Part shown: in pieces, positions 6,956 through 51,514 of the stretch
Layout: every line of letters begins with the position of its first letter
Position numbering within the stretch: the stretch's first letter is position 1
DNA from: Methylobacter sp.
Lineage (GTDB): Bacteria; Pseudomonadota; Gammaproteobacteria; Methylococcales; Methylomonadaceae
DNA length: 51,514 nucleotides
Assembly (NCBI GenBank): GCA_030655535.1
Contig: JAURVK010000074.1
Coordinates: forward strand, 1-51,514
Direction: 5' to 3'
Notes under the pieces: generated by a model
The model's input: the letters and a program-made list of their open reading frames with translations, nothing else
Told to the model about the DNA's origin: nothing
Databases searched by the model: none
Made by a program: the position numbers and the translations under genes

Positions 6956-7003
6956 CTGGAGTGCAAGCTTTGCTTGCGTTTGCAGGCGAAGCCTGCACTC
7001 CGG
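6956..7003. repeat. REP-like palindrome family A copy 1 (CTGGAGTGCAAGCTTTGCTTGCG..GCAGGCGAAGCCTGCACTCCGG)
   Basis: Shares arms with 13756, 38743, 46963 and 51469 copies. Confidence 0.9.
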
Positions 7004-13755: not shown

Positions 13756-13804
13756 CTGGAGTGCAGGCTTTGCCTGCAAGCACAAGCAAAGCTTGCACTC
13801 CTGG
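13756..13804. repeat. REP-like palindrome family A copy 2
   Basis: CTGGAGTGCAGGCTTTGCCTGCAAGCACAAGCAAAGCTTGCACTCCTGG; almost identical to the copy at 51469-51514. Confidence 0.92.
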
Positions 13805-13895: not shown

Positions 13896-14852
13896 ATGTC
13901 AGATCCAAATAAAAAATCCACCCTACAATTTAACAAGTTACAAAAACATTTGCGGCATACGGTCGGCGATGCGATTGCCGACTACAATATGATCGAAAAC
14001 GGCGACAAGGTCATGGTGTGCTTATCCGGCGGCAAGGATTCGTTCACCCTGCTGGATATCCTGATGCACTTGCAAAAAACGGCGCCGGTCGAATTTGAAC
14101 TGATTGCGGTCAATCTGGATCAGAAGCAGCCCGGTTTTCCCGAGCACGTATTGCCGGAATACTTGGCATCGCTGGGTGTGCCGTATCATATTATCGAAAA
14201 AGATACTTACAGCGTGGTAAAACGAGTCATTCCCGAAGGCAATACCACCTGCGGGCTGTGTTCGCGTTTGCGGCGCGGCACTTTATACGGTTATGCCGAA
14301 GCCAACAATGTCACCAAAATCGCTTTGGGCCATCATCGCGACGACATACTTGAAACCTTTTTCCTGAATATTTTTTACGGCGGCAAATTAAAAGCGATGC
14401 CGCCCAAGTTGTTAAGCGACGATAAGAAAAATATTATTATCCGGCCTTTGGCGTACACCCGCGAAAAAGACATCGAACGCTTGGCGGTATTTAAAAATTA
14501 CCCGATTATTCCCTGCAACTTGTGCGGCTCCCAGGAAAACCTGCAACGTCAAGCCATGAAAGTCATGTTGAAAAGTTGGGATAAGCAGTTTCCGGGACGC
14601 TTAGAAACCATTTTTACCAGTCTGAAAAATGTCGCGCCCTCGCAGTTGGCCGATACGCAGTTATTCGATTTTGCCGGGTTAACGCGCAGCCAACAAGCCG
14701 AAGAACAGGTGATGACCTTTATCGCCAGGGATGGTGTGTATGCCGTAAACCTGCCGGGAGCAGGTTCGGCGATTGCCAGGGATGGAGTGTATGCCGCTAG
14801 CCAGTCGGGAGCTGGCGCGGCGAATGCCGGTTTGGACGTGTTGGCTCAGTGA
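13896..14852 (+). CDS. ttcA: tRNA 2-thiocytidine(32) synthetase
   Basis: PP-loop [34 protein letters not shown]-terminus carries two tandem IARDGVYA repeats. Confidence 0.93.
14722..14828 (+). repeat. Two tandem copies of in-frame dispersed element family B (ATYGCCAGGGATGGWGTGTATGCC...), 51-nt period
   Basis: Direct repeat within ttcA 3' coding region, peptide [34 protein letters not shown]. Confidence 0.92.
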
Positions 14853-24613: not shown

Positions 24614-26404
24614 TTAATAAAGGGGTTCACGATAAAACATCAGGATGATGCCAATCTGAAACAGGGCGGCAACAGAAATAAAACCGGCAATCTTCGCGAC
24701 TGCCAAGGATGGCGGCCGCGATTGCTTCCGGTAGTCGTCGGCATTCCCTCCATCCATGGCGGTCAGAAGTGTCGCAATCGGCAGGGAACCGATGCGACCG
24801 CCAGTTCCCGACAGGCTTGCGGCATACACACCATCCCTGGCGATATCTTTGCTTGGGTTATCCAATTTCAACTCCAGCCAGCGACCGCATGCCAGAATAA
24901 GAGAAAAAATTCCCATTGTGGTGTGGCCGACCTGGATAAGAAAAGCACTTTTGGCTTGAAAGCCTACATGTGAATGGGTCAGCAACATTAAACCGCCAAA
25001 AGCTGCCAGCAACGGAAAAACAAAAGGGAGTTTGCTGTTCGGGTTTTTGCTTATCCGGGCACTGAGTTCCATAATGCCGAGCACGAATACCAGTAAGGTC
25101 GCAATCCGGTGCTGTAACACCTCGCCGTTATTAAAAGTACTTTCCCAGAAGCCTATCGGCCCCAAGGGCCAGGTTTCTGCATCGCTACGGAAAAACAGGA
25201 AGATGCCCAGTCCGACGAAACCCAACGGCCAGTATTTGAAGTGTTCAAAGCCGGGCTTTTTTACATAAGACAGCATCGCAAAGAAGCTCATCAGCGTCAG
25301 GAAAATACCGGCAATGTTGTGGTTGTAGTTCGACCATTCGGTTGCCGCCAGGGAGGGAACTTGGCCGACAATGGCGACGCGTCCCGGCTCGCCCGCAATC
25401 AAATCCGTATGCGTTGGGGAGCTTGTTTGGGGAATTTGCGGGTTAAAGGTGTTCAGGACTTCCTGCCAACTTGCCGTCAGGTTTGGAATATCAATAGCCG
25501 GGGGCTGGGAGGCCAAGCTGGCGGCAGTAAACAACAAGGTGACCAAAACAAAGGTTTCCGCTTCAATGTAATAAGGAACGCGGTTATCTAATGCGTGATT
25601 ATTGCCGGAAAATTCGAATTCCACAACGGCGGATTTATTTAACCAGGCAAATCCCAAGGCGATGGTCATTAAGGTGACTTTTACCAGCAATAAATTGCCG
25701 TAGCCGGTACCGATCAGGCCGTTCCAGGTGTCGATGTATTGCAACGCAATAGGCAAGCCTGAGATCAGGATCATCGCAATCGAGGCTATGCCGAACGTAG
25801 AGAAACGCTTAAGCAATAAAGGCCATAATCCGGCGTCAACCTGATTATTGCTGCGTAACAGCCAAAGGTTGACCAGCTGAAAAACTCCGCCGATCCAGGC
25901 TGCTGCGGCCAGTTCATGGATGACTGTCAGCGCCATTAATAGTAATTGATTTTCAAAGCGTCCAGCGCCATGTACCAGCCAAGCGCCGGAAATAATCATC
26001 GGCAAGGCTACGATACCGGCGGTTACCCAGTGCTGTTTGGAAAATGGATTTCTGCTGAGGTATCGATAGCAGTATGTTGCTAAAAATAGAGTCAGTATCG
26101 TACGTACTATGCCGCCTACGAATTGCGTGGTTTCGGCGAATTCGGGAAACGGCGAGCGCTCAAGGACGGCGGCCATTAACCATACTTTAAGGATTATTTT
26201 GAAAAGTTGGGCGGCAGCCAGCCAAAAGCCGCCTTTGTATAAAAGAGTGATGGTTTTTTGCAGTAATAGCCCTGAGTATCCGTCTTGGTACTGCCACGGG
26301 CGTAACACAAAAAGTCCCCAGAACAGGCTGCCGATTGCTAACGAATAGCAAATCAGGTCAAACCCGCCAATCAGAGAATCGAGAAAATCAGCTATGCCGG
26401 CCAT
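24614..26404 (-). CDS. copD: CopD-family copper resistance membrane protein with in-frame repeat insertion
   Basis: Multi-TM; adjacent to copC; contains [33 protein letters not shown] segment between TM segments. Confidence 0.75.
24737..24846 (-). repeat. Dispersed element family B inside copD (one full copy plus an adjacent degenerate copy)
   Basis: Reverse complement of ATCGCCAGGGATGGTGTGTATGCCGCAAGCCTGTCGGGAACTGGCGGTCGCATC. Confidence 0.88.
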
Positions 26405-30949: not shown

Positions 30950-31666
30950 TTAGCCTTGGCTTGGTTGTGCGGTCACATTGTTGAGTTGATTGGCGATCAA
31001 TTTTAATGTGATTTTTGCGGCATTGAAATGCAGGCCAAGTTTTATGAGTCCTGGTAATTCAGTCGGGTGTAGTGCGACATATAATAACAATTTACTCAAA
31101 ACGATGTCGCCTTCATTATTAACAGAATGATTGATGGCTTTGGGTAAATCCATGCCGGCCGGATCGGCAACGGCTCGAATCGCTAAAAAAGGTAGGCTGT
31201 TTTGCCGGGCAACTTTGGCTATGGCGATACTTTCCATGTCCAATGCGATCGCGCCGGTTTGGGTATATAGATGCTTTTTGTCTTGGGCGGCAGCTACGAT
31301 ACTGTTGCTTTCAGCCAAACTGCCGGTATGGACTTTGAGCGTGCTTGAAAGCAGATTTTTGGTGTCACTGTGCCAGTCAGAGTGAATGGCAAATTGAGCG
31401 TTATCGGCATCTATTAAGTTATCTGCCAAGACCAGATCGCCCGGTTTTAGCGTTTCGCTGAGGGCTGCGGCGCAACCCCAGCTGATCAAGCGGGTCGCGC
31501 CTTGTGCAATCAATAGCTCGGATGCGGCCTGTGCATTGTTGGCGCCTGCGCCGGAATAAGCGAGAACGATAGCGTCGCTAATAAAAACACTGCTCCCCTT
31601 ATCAATCTTTTTTGAGGTCAGGGTGCCGAGTTCTTCCGGTAAAGCAACAATAATGCCGGTGATCAA
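30950..31666 (-). CDS. hpnG: Phosphorylase family protein, HpnG (adenosylhopane nucleosidase)
   Basis: Nucleoside phosphorylase fold: SWGCAAAL, ALDMESIAIAKVAR..LPFLAIRAVAD; directly after shc. Confidence 0.82.
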   Translation of the reverse strand: MITGIIVALPEELGTLTSKKIDKGSSVFISDAIVLAYSGAGANNAQAASELLIAQGATRLISWGCAAALSETLKPGDLVLADNLIDADNAQFAIHSDWHSDTKNLLSSTLKVHTGSLAESNSIVAAAQDKKHLYTQTGAIALDMESIAIAKVARQNSLPFLAIRAVADPAGMDLPKAINHSVNNEGDIVLSKLLLYVALHPTELPGLIKLGLHFNAAKITLKLIANQLNNVTAQPSQG

Positions 31667-33675
31667 TTTTTATCGCCAGGGATGGTGTGTATGCCACAAG
31701 CCGGTAGGGAACCGGCGTGGCGATCGCCCTTGAGCTCGTTACGGTAACGCGCTAATGCCCAAAGCGGGAAGAACTTGTCGTAACCGTGGTATTTAAGATA
31801 GAAAACTTTAGGAAAGCCGGGCGCAGTAAAGCATTCGTCATTCCATACGCCGTCAGCTTGCTGGTTGCGCAAGATGAAATCGATGCCTGCTTTGACTTCA
31901 GGACTGTGCGCCTCGCCGGCAGCCATGAGTCCTAAGACGGCCCAGGCCGTTTGGAATGCAGTGCTGAAACGATATTTTCCGCTATGGCTGGTATCGTGAT
32001 AGCTGTAGTTGTCTTCGCCCCAGCCGCCATCGCCGCGTTGTACGCTTTTTAGCCATGTTGCGGCTTTGGTGTAAAGCGGATCGCTTTTAGGCAGGCTGGT
32101 TTGCTCGAGTCCAAGTAATACCGACCATGTGCCGTAGATGTAGTTGGTTCCCCAGCGGCCAAACCATGAACCGTTTTGTTCCTGTTCGCTACGGATATAG
32201 TCGATAGTACGCTCTAGCGCAGGCAGGTATTCATCATGATTCTGCGCTACTCTAGCCATCAGCATTGCGCAGCGTGCGCTGACATCGGAAGTAGGCGGAT
32301 CTAATAACGCGCCATGATCGGCAAAGGGGATTTCGTTCAAGTAATAATAGGTATTATCGACATCGAATGCGCCGTAACCGCCGTTTTTAGATTGCATGCC
32401 GACTATCCAACGGGTAGCACGATGTATCGATTCATCCAGATGCGGCAGGTTCGATTCCGCCATGGCGAAGGCGACAACTGCCGTGTCGTCGACATCGGGG
32501 TAATACGGGTTTTCAAATTGAAATGCCCAGCCGCCGCCTGCTAAATCAGGCTTGGAAATTCGCCAATCACCCGGCTCGTCGGACAGTTGTTTGCTTTTAA
32601 GCCAGTCGTAGGCGCGAGTCAGGCTTTGGCTGTTGCCTATTTTGTCGGATTCCTGTAAAGCCAGTGCGGCCAGCCCTGTATCCCAAACCGGGGACAAACA
32701 GGGCTGGCAGTAGGCGTCATGTTCATTGATAACTAATAATTTGTCGATTGCTTTACGCGCGGTGACGACGAACTCATGATCTTTAGGCATGCCAAGCAGC
32801 AGTAAAGCCTCGTAAGCGGCCATCATCGCCGGAGAAATTCCACCCAGGCCATCTTCGCCGTTCAGGCGTTCGATAATCCAGTCTTTGGCTTTTTCGATGG
32901 CGAGATTGTGCAGTTTTTTGGGGATTAACGGCCGTGTTGCTCGGCCCAGTTTGTCCAAGCCCAGAAAAATCTTATTTAATGTTGTTCTTTCAGGAAAGTA
33001 GTGCTGTTCTTCATCCGGGTGGGTGGTGAACAGTTCCAGTATATCAATGTTGTTTGGATTTTTTGCGGTCGCTTTTAAGGTGCAAAGAATAAACAGCGGT
33101 ACCATAACGGTTCTGGACCAATAGGATACTTTATCCAAATGGAAGGGGAACCAGTTGGGAAGCAGCATGATTTCGACAGGAATATACGGAACGCCGCGCC
33201 AGGGTAATTGCTCAAAGGTTGCCAGCGCAATGCGTGTGAATACGTTGGCTTTTGCCGCACCACCTTGGTTGAGAATATAATTTCTTAATCGGGTCATGTG
33301 CGGTGCGTCGACAGAATCTCCCGCCATTTTCAAGGCGAAATAGGCTTTAACGCTGCAACTAAGGTCGCCCGCACCGCCGGTAAACAGCGGGTAGCTGCCA
33401 TTTTCAGCTTGACGAGATCTTAGATAGTTGGCAATTTTGGCCTGTAGCGGCTGATCAATTTCACCTAGGTAGTGCAGCATCATGATGTATTCTGACGGGA
33501 TCGAGCAGTCTGCCTCCAATTCGAATACCCAATAGCCGTCTTTGTCCTGCAGGCTTAATAATTTATCCTGCGCTTTGCTGATGGCTCGATTGAGATCGGT
33601 TGTGTAGTGATTAACGGTATTCGAGGAACTCGAAATAGTGCCGGTATTGATCTCTGAATTTGCTTCGTTAAACAT
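31663..33675 (-). CDS. shc: Squalene-hopene cyclase
   Basis: DVDDTAVV, QW-type repeats (QNGSWFGRWGTNYIYGTWSVL, GDGGWGED). Confidence 0.95.
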   Translation of the reverse strand: MFNEANSEINTGTISSSSNTVNHYTTDLNRAISKAQDKLLSLQDKDGYWVFELEADCSIPSEYIMMLHYLGEIDQPLQAKIANYLRSRQAENGSYPLFTGGAGDLSCSVKAYFALKMAGDSVDAPHMTRLRNYILNQGGAAKANVFTRIALATFEQLPWRGVPYIPVEIMLLPNWFPFHLDKVSYWSRTVMVPLFILCTLKATAKNPNNIDILELFTTHPDEEQHYFPERTTLNKIFLGLDKLGRATRPLIPKKLHNLAIEKAKDWIIERLNGEDGLGGISPAMMAAYEALLLLGMPKDHEFVVTARKAIDKLLVINEHDAYCQPCLSPVWDTGLAALALQESDKIGNSQSLTRAYDWLKSKQLSDEPGDWRISKPDLAGGGWAFQFENPYYPDVDDTAVVAFAMAESNLPHLDESIHRATRWIVGMQSKNGGYGAFDVDNTYYYLNEIPFADHGALLDPPTSDVSARCAMLMARVAQNHDEYLPALERTIDYIRSEQEQNGSWFGRWGTNYIYGTWSVLLGLEQTSLPKSDPLYTKAATWLKSVQRGDGGWGEDNYSYHDTSHSGKYRFSTAFQTAWAVLGLMAAGEAHSPEVKAGIDFILRNQQADGVWNDECFTAPGFPKVFYLKYHGYDKFFPLWALARYRNELKGDRHAGSLPACGIHTIPGDKN
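31671..31729 (+). repeat. Dispersed element family B at shc 3' end
   Basis: ATCGCCAGGGATGGTGTGTATGCCACAAGCCGGTAGGGAACCGGCGTGGCGAT; translated antisense as [21 protein letters not shown]. Confidence 0.9.
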
Positions 33676-41503: not shown

Positions 41504-41659
41504 GGTTTACTCCTGGATTAATGATCTGTTTAAGGCCGCTCTCAAGGCTTTTCCCCTTACCTATATCTGCGGCGGCCATGGATGGTGCGAATGCCGTAAG
41601 ACTGTTAGAGCGTTCACGACCACGTATCCATAGTATTTGAATAAATAATACCTTAAAAT

Positions 41660-46962: not shown

Positions 46963-47010
46963 ATGGAGTGCAGGCTTTGCCTGCAAGGGCGGGCAAAGCC
47001 TGCACTCCGG
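46963..47010. repeat. REP-like palindrome family A copy 4
   Basis: TGGAGTGCAGGCTTTGCCTGCAAGGGCGGGCAAAGCCTGCACTCCGG; near-perfect palindrome. Confidence 0.93.
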
Positions 47011-51410: not shown

Positions 51411-51468
51411 GGTAACTTCTTCATAAAATTAGGCGATGTCACCTTTAATGGTGAAAACGGCTGATTAC

Positions 51469-51514
51469 TGGAGTGCAGGTTTTGCCTGCAAGCACAAGCA
51501 AAGCTTGCACTCCT
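51469..51514. repeat. REP-like palindrome family A copy 5 (reaches window edge)
   Basis: CTGGAGTGCAGGTTTTGCCTGCAAGCACAAGCAAAGCTTGCACTCCT. Confidence 0.9.

Follow-up and report, generated by a model that had tools for sequence, protein, structure and literature searches.

The stretch of DNA analysed here, which we call the window, is a 51,514-nucleotide contig (JAURVK010000074.1) of Methylobacter sp., and it contains several copies of a short repeat, family B. One of these lies inside a copD-like copper resistance ORF on the minus strand (24614..26404; 596 aa; PF05425, E=5e-17), where an exact 39-nt sequence of the family occupies 24806..24844 on the same strand with 0 mismatches, as the sequence-only reading had reported. 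The window holds three matches to this 39-mer at ≤3 mismatches (14721 on the plus strand, 24806 on the minus strand and 31672 on the plus strand), the number expected by chance being 0 in 100 shuffles of the window. The full B unit is longer than the 39-mer first named and comprises 51 nt. Two units stand in tandem on the plus strand in the C-terminal part of the ttcA ORF (13896..14852, plus strand), at 14721..14771 and 14772..14822, with a spacing of exactly 51 nt; at this site four relatives are empty, reading CATTT followed directly by AATGCC, and others have a single unit or two. A further unit (31672..31722, plus strand) runs across the 3' terminus of shc (ORF 31663-33675, minus strand) and supplies a new C-terminus of 14 residues, the corresponding site being empty in M. 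tundripaludum SV96. The squalene-hopene cyclase thus has a C-terminal tail (31663-31722) that reads the B unit in an antisense frame. An intergenic, degenerate B-like remnant with 3 mismatches in the core is located at 41572..41622 (plus strand), and an Rfam scan of the window gave no match.

Alignment with empty orthologues places the whole foreign insert in copD at 24692..24844 (minus strand), a segment of 153 nt or 51 codons between ...AAAGAT and ATTGCC..., which corrects the interval of 24737-24846 proposed earlier. Within the insert a single B unit adjoins a related repeat of about 103 nt, and the whole lies in the loop before the last TM helix. The B unit (24799..24844, minus strand) retains positions 1-46 of 51, and its second hairpin is damaged and folds poorly because the right end has been replaced by the next repeat. 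That second repeat (24697..24799, minus strand) has a hairpin of its own (GGTCGCATCGG/CCGATTGCGAC) followed by a core with the same two-hairpin plan as B (TGACCTCCATGGATGGAGG...GACTGCCGGGAGCAGTC), and it occurs elsewhere at 87-92% identity (loci L183-L187, L358 and L370). It is a relative of B and not merely a decayed B unit; the adjacent degenerate copy of the original description is part of this separate 103-nt repeat. We note that the 103-nt repeat is abundant, with many further translated matches inside long open frames across the genus.

The B unit in copD translates in frame to a 17-residue peptide, which forms part of a hydrophilic loop flanked by the hydrophobic segments 488-506 and 573-591, in agreement with the loop between TM segments predicted from the sequence at the outset. 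An AlphaFold model of CopD computed with 19 close relatives as input had a mean pLDDT of 51 and was set aside. CopD has 596 aa in the window and 545 aa in relatives without the insert. Among 19 full-length orthologues the loop has 8 residues in 11, and 25, 25, 42, 42, 49, 59, 66 and 74 in the other eight; a partial twelfth empty gene (L179) also has a loop of 8 residues. At the DNA level, alignment with the orthologues shows that the empty site reads GGCAAGGAT directly joined to ATTGCCGG, and two species have exactly one 51-nt B unit at this point. The site is empty in most Methylobacter relatives, including G017, a genome with no B copy anywhere. The sequence-only reading had argued for mobile insertion tolerant of reading frame, and had named as contrary evidence any CopD homologue that kept the loop sequence in a genome free of the element; the comparison was made, the G017 gene has no such sequence, and the precise empty sites bear out the insertion.

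The inserts of the eight filled copD genes differ in length, but all are multiples of 3 and all are stop-free, as expected if the insert is translated. This bears on the proposal that B is harmless because it never reaches the final product, being eliminated from the RNA or during translation. Bypass elements of this kind are known in yeast mitochondria, and B shares with them the property of being a short structured element within genes; however, a unit length that is a multiple of 3, frames that are all open, and filled copD genes whose varied insert lengths conform to translation all speak against removal, and we regard it as highly improbable. A copD tree built with the loops left out does not unite the filled genes as a clade. 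It contains strongly supported sister pairs of differing state (G015 filled and G014 empty; G010 filled and G013 empty) and forces at least three state changes, such that a single origin of the copD insertion is unsupported. Any of three processes could account for these changes: repeated insertion at a single favourable target, precise loss, or exchange between species.

Precise empty sites are not confined to copD and ttcA. When the joined flanks of 22 other B copies in the window's own genome were searched against four relatives, about a dozen further precise empty alleles were recovered, relative to which the filled alleles gain exactly 51 or 102 nt, with neither duplication nor loss of target sequence. 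Family B is thus a real mobile insertion. The base preceding the unit is T in 190/195 copies and the fourth base after it (+4) is G in 162/197, and both bases are already there in most empty alleles; 5' of the left end there is only YKWT, in which the last T is strong, in addition to the G at +4 on the right. B therefore inserts precisely at T^NNNG without target duplication or loss, and the empty sites rule out a TA-type target duplication.

The consensus of the 51-nt unit, derived from 252 contexts, is ATCGCCAGGGATGGTGTGTATGCCGCAAGCCNGTCGGGAACNGGCGCGGCG. It begins with ATCGCC and ends with GCGGCG, and in nearly all contexts it has GTAT at positions 18-21 and the ends ATCG/GGCG. It is open in all six frames and its length corresponds to 17 codons. 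Folding predicts two hairpins, one pairing positions 3-7 with 12-16 around a GGGA loop, and the other pairing 22-34 with 40-50 around a CGGGA loop and including an AA bulge. In the second stem 94.3% of cells are paired, and its covariation is 0.365 compared with 0.166 in shuffled alignments (reached in 0/500) and ≤0.12 when the stem is slid; pair 32-42 is paired in 172/186 units as against 79.5 expected (TA 75, AT 58, CG 17, GC 14). In the first hairpin, pair 4-15 is paired in 184/186 units as against 166.9 expected (GT 164, TA 9, AT 6, GC 5). The stems are thus kept by compensatory changes, showing selection at the level of structure. Variants of this plan occur as well. Locus L350 contains tandem units CTGACTGCCAAGGATGGTGGGAATGCCGCAAGATTGCCTGGAGCAATCGCGG with a period of ~52 nt that represent a two-hairpin relative of B with a different left end, and in two loci (L008 ~1497 and L013 ~1497, reverse strand) a GTAG-type palindrome, GTAG...CGACCGGCCGGTCG...CTAC, takes the place of the inner hairpin in a second B unit, having been either nested within B or swapped into it.

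Conserved hairpins could also be kept for a function in RNA. The motif CAGGGAUG in the B loops resembles the CsrA/Rsm binding motif, as does the GGGA-loop hairpin CCAGGGAUGG at positions 5-16, and B might then recruit CsrA and constitute a mobile regulatory site, not only selfish DNA. Both loops contain GGA and the window's own genome has one csrA gene. We nonetheless consider a role of this type very unlikely: of the B copies within ORFs 55 are sense and 40 antisense, a bias that is only mild, antisense copies would present no motif in the mRNA, and many copies lie deep within coding regions.

B enters protein genes freely. A stop-free frame extends across 150 nt on each side in 108/180 arrays, and the same is true of 63-68% of random positions in the same loci; genes are hardly avoided, as the closeness of the two rates indicates. 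A unit of 17 codons with six open frames lengthens the product by 17 residues, in frame, when it lands in a gene, and this is often tolerated in loops and at protein ends. Host genes whose identity is confirmed by curated models include valyl-tRNA synthetase, RapA, GlnE, RNase R, PurH, dihydrolipoyl dehydrogenase, SufD, HolA, RecO and MinC; the first three of these have two B sites each, with three units at one of the valyl-tRNA synthetase sites. In the valyl-tRNA synthetase gene of a Methylovulum MAG (L082, 1216-4266), one array, of three units, lies near residue 24 and another near residue 803. In the 95 cases with a single open frame, B is read in frame +0 in 45, -0 in 23, -2 in 13, +2 in 9, -1 in 4 and +1 in 1. 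The copD and ttcA copies do share a translational phase, as the sequence-only reading had it, but this is not a general rule, since other copies use all six frames including the antisense ones. CopD itself is an example: three relatives have a second, antisense B insertion in an N-terminal loop of the protein, where it reads SPRQFPTDLRHTHRPWQ or similar. Because one DNA element gives unrelated peptides within the same protein, it is the DNA and not the peptide that recurs. The recurrence of one peptide in two unrelated proteins was rightly attributed to mobile insertion, and the identity of peptide and phase is incidental.

A peptide-level explanation would make the shared sequence a conserved protein motif, owed to common descent or to convergent function, and would treat the DNA identity as secondary; it can point to frame +0 as the commonest. 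It has practically no credence with us: copies are read in all frames and on both strands, the DNA ends and hairpins are conserved in intergenic copies too, and the antisense copies and exact empty sites refute it.

The 180 arrays comprise 133 single units, 38 doubles, 8 triples and 1 quadruple, and the tandem spacing is exactly 51 nt in 57/57 cases. Tandem arrays are strongly polar. In a set of 58 arrays, drawn from loci not picked by their left junction and including some that are orthologous between species and so not all independent, the right-hand unit is the more defective of the two in 44, as against 7 in which the left-hand unit is (P = 1e-7); scoring 5' mismatches alone gives 23 versus 5 (P = 9e-4). 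The analysis was first run on loci picked by a leading T, which favours intact first units, and the effect held on the unbiased loci. The left unit is thus the least decayed. This is what growth by insertion at the left junction predicts, as the sequence there, T followed by ATCG, fits the target. Replication slippage or unequal recombination, in place of new insertions, could also change the number of units in arrays and in copD. Adjacent units are in fact more similar than shuffled pairs (7.73 versus 9.95 differences), and some local duplication of B units probably occurs. As the source of the arrays we find slippage or recombination rather unlikely, however, in the face of the strong left-right polarity of decay, the match of the left junction to the target, and the 10-18 positions at which neighbours often differ; moreover, it would account for arrays alone and not for dispersal.

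The window's own genome (2.76 Mb) has 35 matches to a 21-nt core of B at ≤3 mismatches, and a reversed control has 0. B is present in 22/23 genomes of the genus, mostly in 15-60 copies, the only B-free genome being G017 (99% complete; 0 copies). In the order it is found in 33/201 genomes, all within the window's family, with 0 copies in the genomes of the other seven families sampled. Named records with B are mostly Methylobacter and Methylovulum, along with Methyloglobulus and other Methylococcales; the named matches are methanotrophs, and the isolates include M. tundripaludum SV96 and M. marinus A45. Searches of phage and plasmid collections for B gave no match.

Taking these features together, we think it probable that B is a tiny, non-autonomous and selfish element that inserts precisely at T^NNNG, extends its arrays at the left junction, and would be mobilised in trans as single-stranded DNA by an enzyme of the HUH/Y1 type. 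Repeated use of its left junction as a target explains the exact head-to-tail arrays in which the youngest unit is leftmost, and its effect on the host protein may be close to neutral. The step in which an HUH/Y1-type transposase would read the hairpins and move B in trans is a best guess to which we give somewhat less than an even chance. A small strand bias is consistent with it: 34/54 copies are on the G-rich strand (P=0.04-0.08), rising to 18/24 at strong skew (P=0.02), an excess that is partly confounded by gene orientation and has the sign that ssDNA transposition on the lagging template would produce. Y1 genes number 1 in B-free G017 and 8-13 in B-bearing genomes, although the B-free side of this comparison is one genome. 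Against this step, no transposase could be tied to B. The window's own genome has 12 Y1_Tnp matches, and no B-like core is found at these 12 loci; these and 30 further Y1 loci have only 10-14-nt matches to B, at chance level. The surroundings of B copies show no enrichment of RAYT genes (2 in 934 kb), and the genes that recur next to B are all orthologous hosts. An autonomous partner with ends matching B was not found in the loci examined.

Elements of the IS200/IS605 family have two subterminal hairpins on one strand, make no target duplication, insert 3' of a preferred sequence, and show a weak strand bias. B is like them, and like their non-autonomous derivatives, the PATEs, in its precise empty sites without target duplication and its two hairpins supported by covariation. 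It differs from IS200/IS605 derivatives in being only 51 nt long, in having a single strong base as its left target, and in the extra G at +4, which we do not know as a feature of IS200/IS605 targets. Such a two-sided target would also suit a double-strand DDE transposase acting on B as a MITE, a site-specific recombinase or an IS110-like enzyme, with the ends and T^NNNG as recognition sites and the hairpins as mere DNA shape or guide RNA. The ends ATCGCC/GGCGAT are inversely complementary, target information is present in both flanks, and the right flank AATGCC is similar to the left end ATCGCC, a likeness that can also exist between the donor and target cores of recombinases. We nevertheless see mobilisation of this kind as unlikely, though a serious contender: the precise empty sites are all without the target duplication of ordinary DDE elements, and covariation within an internal stem is unneeded by enzymes that read a duplex. 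We are similarly doubtful of a more far-reaching interpretation of single-stranded mobilisation, in which B, a two-hairpin ssDNA unit of 51 nt with six open frames, would be a minimal transposon of a new class. It would form polar tandem arrays by taking the junction at its own left end as a target, and selection for passage through protein genes would have shaped its length and open frames. If this is true, B recurrently lengthens the same proteins across a bacterial family (copD in two loops, and valS, rapA and glnE each at two sites).

Selfish DNA that is read in frame within proteins has been known since the Rickettsia palindromic elements (RPEs) of 2000. The RPEs and the Wolbachia palindromic elements are short palindromic repeats, inserted in frame into protein genes, where they encode an additional peptide, occurring in core genes and in surface-exposed parts of the products, and their mode of movement is unexplained (PMC10969869, PMC2229807, PMC3767692). 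B likewise is a palindromic repeat found in frame in many unrelated protein genes, core genes among them. RPEs, however, are 100-150 bp long, with long stem-loops and terminal inverted repeats, and inhabit obligate intracellular Alphaproteobacteria (Rickettsiales), whereas B has 51 nt and two hairpins, inserts at a defined target, forms exact tandem arrays, is absent from many empty sites, and resides in free-living gammaproteobacterial methanotrophs. REPs, the GTAG/CGTC-tagged repeats associated with genes for RAYT (Y1) transposases, are similar to B in being short hairpin units with covarying stems that are often clustered, and some REP families lie within genes (PMC3733652). In contrast to REPs, B has GTAT at the foot of its hairpin and neither a GTAG nor a CGTC tag; it forms head-to-tail arrays at exactly 51 nt and not inverted dimers; it does not lie beside RAYT genes in its own genome; and it occurs in genes about as often as random sites do, REPs being mainly intergenic. 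Bacterial MITEs such as Correia, ERIC and RUP are also non-autonomous and dispersed, and some have open frames fused to genes (PMC2229807), but MITEs are typically bounded by terminal inverted repeats and duplicate a TA-type target, and B makes no duplication. The closest relatives of B are the RPEs in behaviour, and the intragenic GTAG/CGTC REPs in size and structure; it is a member of neither group, as it lacks the tags, length, host group and RAYT association. We found no description of this Methylobacter element in the open-licence literature, and B constitutes a new family of palindromic elements that invade proteins, known from one family of methanotrophs.

RPEs live in obligate parasites, and B presents a related phenomenon in a genus that is free-living and represented by isolates (M. 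tundripaludum, M. marinus and M. luteus), for which the evidence of precise insertion and directional array growth is unusually good. With many pairs of filled and empty species and a defined unit, target and polarity, its mobility, its choice of target and its effects on proteins are directly testable, and the polarity predicts where the next copy will land. Core enzymes such as valyl-tRNA synthetase evidently take repeated 17-residue inserts, and annotators should be aware that these inserts are not domains.

Finally, we note that the window contains another palindromic repeat, GGAGTGCAGGCTTTGCCTGC...GCAAAGCTTGCACTCC, in four copies (6956-7002, 13756-13802, 46963-47009 and 51468-51514). A copy of this repeat adjoins a Y1/RAYT-like gene elsewhere in the same genome (L220 ~1234), of which it may be the true REP.
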